Source: Chloroflexota bacterium
Lineage (GTDB): Bacteria; Chloroflexota; Dehalococcoidia; Tepidiformales; Tepidiformaceae
Direction of reading: 5' to 3'
NCBI GenBank assembly: GCA_026702615.1
Contig: JAPPBY010000034.1
Location: 1 to 64,000 of the forward strand
Length of the DNA: 64,000 nt
Below, in pieces: positions 35,323 through 38,892 of the stretch. Made by a program: the position numbers and the translations under genes. How positions within the stretch are numbered: the stretch's first letter is position 1; the number at the start of each line of letters is the position of its first letter. The notes under the pieces were generated by a model. It was not told the DNA's origin and did no database searches. It saw only the letters and a list, made by a program, of their open reading frames with translations.

Positions 35323-35829
35323 CTACTCGGTGGGTGCTTCTTGCACCCAGCTGGCCAGCGGGTACAGGGTCCGCTTGGCGATGCGCCAGCCGTCCTCGGT
35401 CCGCACGGCGTGGTCGATGTACGTCAGCAGAACGAGGAAGACGTCACCGTTCGGCTGGAGGTGCGAGGCGTGCATGTAGGTCGACATCTCGGCGCTCTCG
35501 CCATCCTCGCCCGGCACGATGTTCACGCTGCCGATCAGGTGCTGCGTCGCGATGTGCCCCATCCCCCGGAACGTCCCCTCCACGAACCCCACCCACTCGT
35601 CCGGACCCGTGCGCTGCGTGTCCGGGTTCCCGCTGATGGAGATGTCGGCGTCGGGCGTGAAAGTCTGGTGGTAGAGGGCTCGCCCCACCTCCGGCTCGTC
35701 CCGCCCGATGGCGTCCGTTCCCAGCGCGTAGTTCGTGGCAAGCTGCCGGACGGCGCTCTCCATGGCGGGCCAGTCGGCCCGATCGCTCCCGCCCGCCGTC
35801 TGGAGAACGCGTGGCGTCTCGTTGCTCAT
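35323..35829 (-). CDS. SnoaL/NTF2-like protein
   Basis: A 168-aa NTF2-fold protein (SnoaL_4-like): helix AMESAVRQLATNYALGTDAIGRDEPE, the YHQTFTPDADISISG strand region and the C-terminal DGWRIAKRTLYPLASWV. ATG 35829 overlaps the stop of the probable selenoprotein gene (ATGA at 35826-35829), so expression of the two is coupled. A second, unrelated-looking SnoaL protein is at 5873. Function is unknown. Confidence 0.8.
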   Translation of the reverse strand: MSNETPRVLQTAGGSDRADWPAMESAVRQLATNYALGTDAIGRDEPEVGRALYHQTFTPDADISISGNPDTQRTGPDEWVGFVEGTFRGMGHIATQHLIGSVNIVPGEDGESAEMSTYMHASHLQPNGDVFLVLLTYIDHAVRTEDGWRIAKRTLYPLASWVQEAPTE

Positions 35830-36473
35830 CCCTGCTCCCCCTCGGTGCGAGCCTCGCGACCGAGCTCCTTCATGACCGCCTGGAACGTCTCGTACTCCTG
35901 CGCCCCCACCACGGCGTATTGCTCGTCGAAGATGAAGGTCGGCACCGAGCGCACCCCCGCGAGCCGCGCCCCCTCCACCGCTTCCTCCACCTGTTCCCGG
36001 TAGACCTCGCCCTCGAGCGCTTGCCGCAGTTTGTCCCCCGGCAACCCCGTTTCCTCCCCCAGCCGCACGAGCGTGTCGACCTGCCCGATGTCTTCGAGAT
36101 TCTCGAAATACGCCTCGAAGACATGCCGGTGGAACACTTGCGCGCACTCCTCGTGGTGGTCCGCCGCGAACTCCGCCGCCTGCAGCGCCAGCATCGAACT
36201 CGATCGGTGCGTCCGCCCCGGCGTGAAGCGGACCCCGGCCTCCTTTGCCCGCTGCTCCATGTAGTTGCGCGCGTCGCTCCGCTTCCCCGAGGGTGGTGGC
36301 TGCGGCCGCCCCTCCGGCGGAACGCTGGCGTCGAGCAGGTACGGCGCGAACTGCACCTCCACCCCCTCGTACTCCTGCTGCAGCCGGTCGACCTCTCCGA
36401 GGCCGAGGTAGCACCAGGGTCAGACGAAGTCGGAGACGACGGTCAGGACCGTGCGCGCAGGTGTCTCGCTCAT
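35826..36473 (-). CDS. DsbA/FrnE family oxidoreductase, probable selenoprotein (UxxC)
   Basis: A 215-residue DsbA-like thioredoxin-fold protein if TGA at 36422-36420 is read as selenocysteine at residue 18. The frame is intact from ATG 36473: the N-terminus reads TVVSDFV-U-PWCYLGLGEV, where the family has DFVCPWCYLG, so the TGA replaces the first active-site Cys and C21 is kept as the resolving Cys. The rest is a normal FrnE protein (YFENLEDIGQVDTLVRLGEETG; GVRSVPTFIFDEQY with the cis-Pro). A SECIS-like hairpin follows (36406-36388). The downstream gene overlaps by ATGA. Without Sec insertion the product stops at 17 residues; the alternative is a pseudogene or a start at GTG 36362, which would lose the active site. 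Confidence 0.75.
36388..36406 (-). promoter_or_regulatory. Candidate bacterial SECIS hairpin
   Basis: On the minus strand TCGGCCTC-GGA-GAGGTCGA forms an 8-bp stem with one G-U pair and a three-base loop GGA. The loop begins 21 bases after the in-frame TGA. Known bacterial SECIS elements have a short loop with a G in its first two positions and lie roughly 16-37 bases past the UGA, so this hairpin fits. It lies entirely in coding sequence, as in formate dehydrogenase genes. Confidence 0.65.
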
Positions 36474-36507: not shown

Positions 36508-38892
36508 CTACTTCCCGACGGCTGCCCCCGGAAGCGGCTCGCGTGTGCTCGCGTCGGCCAGCCCGAGGCTCGGCAGCACACGGTTGAGCCAGCTCGGCAT
36601 CCACCAGTTGGCGTCGCTCATCATCTGCATCGCCGCAGGCACCAGGATCAGCCGGATAACCGTCGCATCGAGGAAGATCGCCACCGCAAGCCCGATTCCG
36701 AACTCTTTCACCACCCGCTGGTCGCTCAGCGAGAAGCTGAGGAACACCGCCACCATGATCGCCGCCGCCGCCGAGATGACGCGGCTGGTGGCCGCCAGGC
36801 CCCGAGCCACCGCCTCGGCATTGTCGCCAGTTTCCAGATACTCCTCGCGCACCCGGCTCACGAGGAACACCTCGTAGTCCATCGACAGTCCGAACAGCAC
36901 GGCGAACATCATCATCGGCAGGAACGACTCGATCGGACCCGTGCCCTCCAGCCCGATCAGGCTGCCGCCCCAGCCCCACTGGAAGATCGCCACGAGAACG
37001 CCGAAGGCCGCACCCGCCGCGAGCACGTTCATCAGCGCCGCCTTGACCGGCACGAGCAACGACCGGAACACGACCATCAGCAGCAGGAAGCTCGCTCCGA
37101 TCACCGCCCCCAGGAATACCGGCACCCGATCCTGCACCCGCTCCCCGATGTCGATGAAGATCGCCGTGGGACCGCCGACCAATGCATCGATTCTGCGTCC
37201 CGTGAGTTCTGGCAGCGAGTCCCGGAGATGGTGAACGAGTTCGCCTGTCTCCTCGTCCTGGGGTGAGCTTCCCGGGATGAGCACGATGCGGCCCGCCGTC
37301 CGATCCGGGTTGATGAGCGCGGGCGAGACGCCAACGACATTCGGTTCCGCAGCCAGTGCAGCGGGCAGCGCCTCGAAGACTGCCGCTTCCTCTTCGCTCT
37401 CAAGGGCGGCGGCGATCACGATCGGACCGTTGTAGCCGGCGCCGAAGCCCTCCGCCAGCAGGTCGTACGAGCGCCGTGACGAGAGCGAGGTGGGATTGCT
37501 CCCGGCATCGCTCGAGCCCAGCCGCACGTCGAGTGCCGGGTACGCGAGCACCAGGAGCGCCGCTGTCGCCACGACGAGCCACAACCACGGGGCTCGCTGG
37601 ATGGTTCGCGCCAGCCAGTAGCCCATCCCGCTCTGGTTCTGGACGGCCGCGACCCGTATCCCGGGCACCCTCAGGCGGTTCACCCGGTGCCCGACGAGGC
37701 TCAGGATGGCCGGCAGGACGAAGAGCGCCACGAGTGCCGCAAGCCCCACGGCGATCGCTGGCCCCATCGCCGTCAGGGACAGGAGCGGGATGCCCATGGC
37801 CCACAGCCCCATGAGCGCGATGACGACACTGCAGCCCGCGAACAACACCGAGTGTCCAGCCGTTCCCGCCGCCTTCACGACGGCTTCGGTGACGGTCTCT
37901 TCGGTCGTCAGCGCCTCACGGAAGCGGGTCACGACAAGGAGGGCGTAGTCGATCCCTACGCCGATGCCAATCATCGCCGCGAACTGCGGCGTGAAGGGGG
38001 CGAAGTTCACGAACGAGGCCCCAACCCCGATCAGGAAGAAGGCCGGGATGAGCGCCAACAGCGCGGTGAAGATCGGCAGCCCTGCTGCCGTTACCGACCC
38101 GAAGGCGATGAGCAGGATGACCACCGCCGCCGCCAGCCCCACCAGCTCCGAGCTGCCCGGTGGTTCGCGTTCGCCCGCCGTCGCGACGATTCCGCCCAGC
38201 TCGACCTGCAGCTCGCCCGTAGAAACCTCATCCCTCCAGTCGAAGAGCGCCTCGATGCTGTGGTCGTTGACCTCGTTGGCCCCGACTTCGTACTGCGCTG
38301 TGGCGCGCGCGATCGTGCCGTCTGGTGAGATGCGTCCCGGTTCCTCGTAGGGGGAGGCCACCTCCAGCACCTGCGGCAGATCCGCCGCCTGTTCGAGGAG
38401 CGCCTCAATCGCCTCCCGCACCTCGGGATTCTCGATCCCTGCCGGAGCGCGGAACACGATCTCGGTCGTGTCGCCTGCGGCGCTTGGGAACCGCTCGGTG
38501 AGCAGGTCGCTCAACGCTTGCGACTCTGTCCCTGGCAGCGTGAAGCTGCCTGTACCGAATTCGCCGCGCATCGTCCCCCACAGCACCCCGCAGACCAGGA
38601 CGAAGGTCATGGCCCCGGCGATCACGACCCACGGACGCCGGCACGCGAACCGCGGCCACCAGTCGAACAGGAACGAACCGCTCTCCGCCTCCCCTGCTGT
38701 CTCCCACGCGATCGGCTGTGCCGGCGCATCCGCCACCACCGCCGGCCGCCCCTGGGGCGCAGGCCGAGCCTGTCGCCGTGGCGCGGGGGTGGTGCGCGCG
38801 CCCCCTGCGATCGTCTGCCAGAGCATCCAGACCGCCCCGCCGACCACCGCAAGGCCAAGGATCCCGGCAATCAACCGCCCGAAACCGTTCAC
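36508..38892 (-). CDS. MMPL family RND transporter
   Basis: A 794-aa RND/MmpL-type inner-membrane transporter, unrelated in close detail to the one at 23604. It has an extra N-terminal hydrophobic segment (LIAGILGLAVVGGAVWMLW) and a Pro/Arg-rich linker, then a standard MMPL core with IGIGVGIDYALLVVTRFREAL and FGLSMDYEVFLVSRVREEY in helices 4 and 10. Substrates of such proteins are lipids, siderophores or hydrophobic drugs. It is 34 bp upstream of the selenoprotein gene, possibly one transcript. Confidence 0.92.
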   Translation of the reverse strand: MNGFGRLIAGILGLAVVGGAVWMLWQTIAGGARTTPAPRRQARPAPQGRPAVVADAPAQPIAWETAGEAESGSFLFDWWPRFACRRPWVVIAGAMTFVLVCGVLWGTMRGEFGTGSFTLPGTESQALSDLLTERFPSAAGDTTEIVFRAPAGIENPEVREAIEALLEQAADLPQVLEVASPYEEPGRISPDGTIARATAQYEVGANEVNDHSIEALFDWRDEVSTGELQVELGGIVATAGEREPPGSSELVGLAAAVVILLIAFGSVTAAGLPIFTALLALIPAFFLIGVGASFVNFAPFTPQFAAMIGIGVGIDYALLVVTRFREALTTEETVTEAVVKAAGTAGHSVLFAGCSVVIALMGLWAMGIPLLSLTAMGPAIAVGLAALVALFVLPAILSLVGHRVNRLRVPGIRVAAVQNQSGMGYWLARTIQRAPWLWLVVATAALLVLAYPALDVRLGSSDAGSNPTSLSSRRSYDLLAEGFGAGYNGPIVIAAALESEEEAAVFEALPAALAAEPNVVGVSPALINPDRTAGRIVLIPGSSPQDEETGELVHHLRDSLPELTGRRIDALVGGPTAIFIDIGERVQDRVPVFLGAVIGASFLLLMVVFRSLLVPVKAALMNVLAAGAAFGVLVAIFQWGWGGSLIGLEGTGPIESFLPMMMFAVLFGLSMDYEVFLVSRVREEYLETGDNAEAVARGLAATSRVISAAAAIMVAVFLSFSLSDQRVVKEFGIGLAVAIFLDATVIRLILVPAAMQMMSDANWWMPSWLNRVLPSLGLADASTREPLPGAAVGK

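Follow-up and report, generated by a model that had tools for sequence, protein, structure and literature searches.

A frnE-like gene in the window (the whole 64,000-nucleotide stretch of DNA that was analysed) very probably encodes a functional selenoprotein, namely a thiol-disulfide oxidoreductase of the FrnE/DsbA type that probably works in the cytoplasm and has U-P-W-C at its active site. This reading of the sequence draws on a conserved UGA codon, a complete selenocysteine (Sec) machinery, the match between codon and machinery across relatives, a hairpin resembling a SECIS element, evidence of purifying selection, and the fold predicted for the protein. The host genome is a draft assembly of 2.87 Mb in 38 contigs; its lineage is represented mainly by metagenome bins, and the entries for it in public databases are Dehalococcoidia/Chloroflexota MAGs.

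The frnE-like gene and its codon 18

The features on which the analysis centres, all on the minus strand, are as follows.
36508..38892, minus strand: MMPL-family transporter gene upstream of frnE, a neighbour kept in the genus
36473-35826, minus strand, terminal TGA included: frnE-like gene for a 215-aa DsbA/FrnE thiol oxidoreductase with predicted Sec18 (UPWC), from frame and homology
36422-36420, minus strand: in-frame TGA, predicted to be Sec codon 18, where the first active-site Cys would stand, from frame and homologs
36411..36413, minus strand: TGC for Cys21, the resolving Cys of UxxC, from frame and alignment
36388..36406, minus strand: putative bacterial SECIS hairpin with an 8-bp stem (UCGGCCUC/GAGGUCGA) and a 3-nt loop, from comparison
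35323..35829, minus strand: SnoaL-like gene, which overlaps the frnE end via ATGA and adjoins frnE in the genus

The frame that opens at ATG 36473 reads MSETPARTVLTVVSDFV-TGA-PWCYLGL..., ends at the TGA at 35828-35826 and has the TGA at 36422-36420 as its sole internal stop. The original prediction had described it as intact but for this one codon at the first active-site Cys, with a full-length DsbA-like protein beyond it, and both points are confirmed by the frame and by a Pfam DSBA match that spans residues 10-200 (E 3.6e-29) once the internal TGA is translated as an amino acid. The 215-aa product also matches the solved Deinococcus FrnE in sequence (E 4e-16). When UGA is read as C in an alignment of 35 sequences, codon 18 is the first Cys of DFV[C/U]PWC, a position that is otherwise invariant, and conservation in the protein family is highest at [U/C]PWCY. 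The CPWC-type motif of the product stands where helix 1 begins, with predicted Sec in place of its first Cys, and the conserved VPT-loop proline (P178) is present. No signal sequence was seen at its N-terminus on inspection. NCBIfam holds no model for the family of this protein and returned only a sub-threshold match to another seleno-lipoprotein.

In a mechanical scan of the 64-kb window, about 50 frames were interrupted by a TGA that gave UxxC, CxxU or a similarly spaced motif. Only frnE among them has a recognisable active-site context; the other UxxC/CxxU read-through frames in the window were, as judged by eye, off-frame GC-rich noise. Because so many such frames arise mechanically, a bare UxxC motif is weak evidence, and it is homology, machinery and structure that carry the case for a selenoprotein. 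A 363-aa ORF at 35323-36414 was considered as a fused protein and rejected, as it is the SnoaL frame extended back in an alternative frame. The predicted ATGA junction between the frnE stop and the next gene was seen at 35829-35826, and this overlap with the SnoaL-like start is probably one of translational coupling. P450 and flavin monooxygenase genes also lie near frnE.

Selenocysteine machinery and codon 18 across relatives

The presence of the Sec machinery in the genome was a check named beforehand for the selenoprotein reading, and all of the parts were found: tRNA-Sec (71 bits; anticodon UCA by ARAGORN), SelA (516 bits), SelB (299 bits) and SelD (347 bits). The SelD gene (L165 295-1230; G000 contig 8, 40194-41129) has a TGA within its glycine-rich N-terminal motif, GCGGU, and SelD of this genome is predicted to be a selenoprotein itself; many bacterial SelD genes likewise have a TGA in that motif. 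The tRNA-Sec gene (G000 contig 36, 7913-8006; L009) has two neighbours that were named by eye from the translation: an ORF resembling an LLM-class flavin monooxygenase, which it follows directly, and a topoisomerase/gyrase B-like gene on the opposite strand, which it precedes. For FdhA, the commonest bacterial selenoprotein, no member scored above the cut-off and its matches contained no internal stop. Two genomes of the same genus (G005 and G008) have SelA and tRNA-Sec and lack a close frnE match, so that in these genomes the trait is presumably kept by other selenoproteins.

Homologs of frnE were found in 60 of the 99 relatives searched. Codon 18 is TGA in all seven genomes of the genus that have the gene, the window's included, with 195-197 open codons downstream, and most genomes of the taxonomic family likewise have TGA there; across full-length close copies the frame stays open for 188-197 further codons. 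Sequence comparison places this conservation far beyond chance. The TGA is thus no strain-specific stop followed by decay of the frame, since close homologs keep it and show no decay downstream.

Whether homologs have Cys or TGA at codon 18 was a check that the original prediction had proposed; they carry one or the other, in step with the Sec machinery. Among 63 homologous stretches read class-wide, TGA occurs in 43, every one (43/43) from a genome with SelA and/or a true tRNA-Sec. Cys occurs in the remaining 20, of which 14 come from genomes with neither SelA nor tRNA-Sec and the other 6 from genomes that have at least one of the two; seen from the side of the machinery, all 14 copies from genomes without SelA and tRNA-Sec are Cys. 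Codon identity and machinery are strongly associated (Fisher p 1e-9, relatedness uncorrected), and the six Cys copies that coexist with SelA or tRNA-Sec count against the Sec reading. In the ortholog clade (28 rows, support 99), 20/20 Sec copies are from genomes with machinery and 8/8 Cys copies from genomes without SelA or tRNA-Sec. Two members of one genus that are sisters in the tree, G029 (Sec) and G023 (Cys), differ in codon and machinery together. Matches to tRNA-Sec of 48-52 bits in Cys-bearing genomes were set aside, as the six that were checked were all tRNA-Ser. Bin contamination is unlikely to have caused the agreement between codon and machinery, because frnE and selA lie together on contig C4 in G004, and in G094 contig C2 carries selA and tRNA-Sec along with a TGA-bearing frnE homolog.

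The Sec/Cys state changes 11 times on a quick tree, and at least 8 of these changes are forced by well-supported branches. A second FrnE-like Sec paralog, of the DYVUPWCYIAARR type, occurs in the same family (L139, L140, L143, L144, L148, L150), with a different strong hairpin past its UGA.

The putative SECIS hairpin, selection and rival readings

The original prediction had made no mention of an RNA element; a SECIS-like hairpin was found additionally past UGA18. It starts 14 nt past the UGA and its loop lies at 22-24 nt, and both this position and the small G-bearing loop fit published features of bacterial SECIS elements (PMC1088965). In 24 Sec sequences the first base of the loop, G (36398), is invariant (24/24) and the stem is paired in 99% of cells; changes on both sides of the stem occur in 7 cells versus 1.7 in shuffles, and none of 500 shuffles scored as high. 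In close Cys homologs pairing falls to 73% of cells, no better than shuffled. In silico recoding of each sequence with synonymous codons separated RNA from protein constraint: the mean hairpin energy of Sec copies was -10.7 kcal/mol versus -5.3 for their recodings, and that of Cys copies -5.2 versus -4.6 kcal/mol. Folding of the window's own hairpin region by itself showed no gain in stability over dinucleotide shuffles (z -0.12), so it is on comparison that the case for a SECIS element depends. Among the most distant TGA paralogs the pairing register differs, and several have no significant hairpin. Taken from these alignments, the hairpin after UGA18 is a putative bacterial SECIS.

Substitutions after the TGA fall 14/11/50 by codon position in an example pair of genus members. 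Their concentration at third positions indicates that the frame past the TGA is selected as protein, and the downstream frame can be read as being under purifying selection. On the two sides of the TGA, residues 9-17 and 19-37 show conservation similar to or higher than that of the remaining protein. In two close relatives (L015 from G004 and L016 from G003) the sequence is 94-100% identical to the window genome before frnE and to about 20-30 nt past the UGA; identity then falls to 56-92% in the frnE body (window 35826-36400) and rises again. Such a pattern points to recombination within frnE that replaced one allele by another, with the UGA kept in both. From the comparative data as a whole, we consider it probable that FrnE is widespread in Dehalococcoidia as an enzyme that uses Sec, that it has changed repeatedly between Sec and Cys as the Sec machinery was lost, and that its alleles have recombined between close strains while the UGA and SECIS were kept.

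Other readings of UGA18 have to be weighed against this body of evidence. A nonsense mutation or sequencing error would make the gene a frnE pseudogene or the TGA an artefact, and it is true that translation table 11 would give a shortened annotated product and that the genome is a draft; but the same codon is TGA in the seven genomes of the genus and most of the family, the frame of full-length close copies remains open for 188-197 codons beyond it, and the third-position bias there speaks of constraint. Conservation in many genomes together with selection downstream refutes this reading, to which we assign a negligible probability. The UGA could also be a true stop, with a 178-aa protein lacking the active site made from the internal GTG 36362, where such an ORF does exist. 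That product would leave out the well-conserved residues 9-17 and 19-37 and the [U/C]PWCY stretch, and would not account for Cys at codon 18 where the machinery is absent; as the N-terminal coding region is conserved, an internal start is refuted and we hold it to be highly improbable.

It is likewise very improbable that UGA18 is decoded as Cys or Trp, by a near-cognate tRNA or by reassignment, instead of Sec. The comparative data alone do not give the inserted residue, and some mis-incorporation of Cys at UGA18 may occur. General reassignment is contradicted by the UGA codons that terminate frnE itself, the CMD gene, the P450 gene and a CoxS-motif frame; the original prediction had named coxS and coxL as examples of normal TGA stops, of which the CoxS-motif frame bears this out, together with P450, CMD and frnE, and coxL was unconfirmed by motif search. 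Moreover, the tRNA-Sec has the anticodon UCA, and the TGA copies track the presence of SelA and tRNA-Sec and carry the hairpin. Decoding as Sec remains the reading that we adopt.

Fold, proposed mechanism and relation to known systems

The AlphaFold2 model of the frnE product (pLDDT 93, pTM 0.89) places residue 18 directly before a helix at 19-34, and together with Pfam indicates a thioredoxin fold with a helical insertion and a DSBA domain. The five best PDB matches of the model are all D. radiodurans FrnE (TM 0.79-0.83). We propose a mechanism in which SelB with Sec-tRNA(Sec), recruited by the hairpin past UGA18, would insert Sec, as the parts present suggest, whereas the terminal UGA of frnE would work as a stop. 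By the precedent of the DsbA/FrnE family, Sec18, which stands at the N-terminal end of helix 1, would attack substrate disulfides or oxidised thiols, giving a mixed selenenylsulfide that Cys21 would resolve. The protein would act in the cytoplasm and, by analogy with Deinococcus FrnE, may serve as a reductase or isomerase in oxidative or metal stress. Its active site might, speculatively, be regenerated through thioredoxin or a small thiol, for example.

D. radiodurans FrnE (DR_0659; PDB 5cnw, 5co3, 5cp1) has the same fold as the window protein (Foldseek E 3e-14) and its [C/U]PWC motif at the same position, but with Cys in place of Sec. It has been described as a disulfide reductase of the cytoplasm that contributes to tolerance of cadmium and diamide; a CX4C motif at the C-terminal end, its second motif, is important for activity and is thought to regenerate the active site (PMC8945050). 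This second motif is absent from the 215-aa window sequence, as it is from some other FrnE proteins (PMC8945050), so regeneration must differ from that in D. radiodurans FrnE. Nearer relatives with Cys at codon 18 are the Tepidiforma FrnE proteins (L063, L073), orthologs in the clade of the window protein and 46-49% identical to it; in genus g13, probably Tepidiforma, the genomes of the close Cys relatives lack both SelA and a true tRNA-Sec.

Selenoproteins of the DsbA-like type have been placed in COG2761, which we take to be the FrnE group. The UxxC motif was put forward in the original prediction as a known selenoprotein form, and the same family was indeed published in 2005, when the Sargasso Sea selenoproteome gave nine Sec DsbA-like sequences of COG2761 with UxxC (PMC1088965). 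Four such genes were counted in sequenced bacteria in 2006 (PMC1794560), and a 2026 review lists 'DsbA-like protein form 1' (PF01323, UxxC; PMC13188914). Likened by published description, these proteins share with the window protein PF01323, UxxC and a SECIS-like stem-loop just past the UGA. A partial literature search found no description of an FrnE with Sec from Dehalococcoidia or from sponge Chloroflexi. Annotation that takes UGA as a stop will probably show the gene, wrongly, as truncated or split, and the finding is of more use to curators of selenoproteomes than it is a surprise. The Sec-using bacteria gain a Dehalococcoidia lineage by it, and Sec/Cys exchange can be studied here as a clean natural experiment that has close relatives in either state. 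Whereas the nine Sargasso Sea sequences are metagenomic and of unassigned source, the window gene has a Dehalococcoidia host whose machinery is identified. The Sec FrnE/DsbA-like protein type is thus already known, and what is new is the lineage, the concordance with the machinery and the repeated switching between Sec and Cys.
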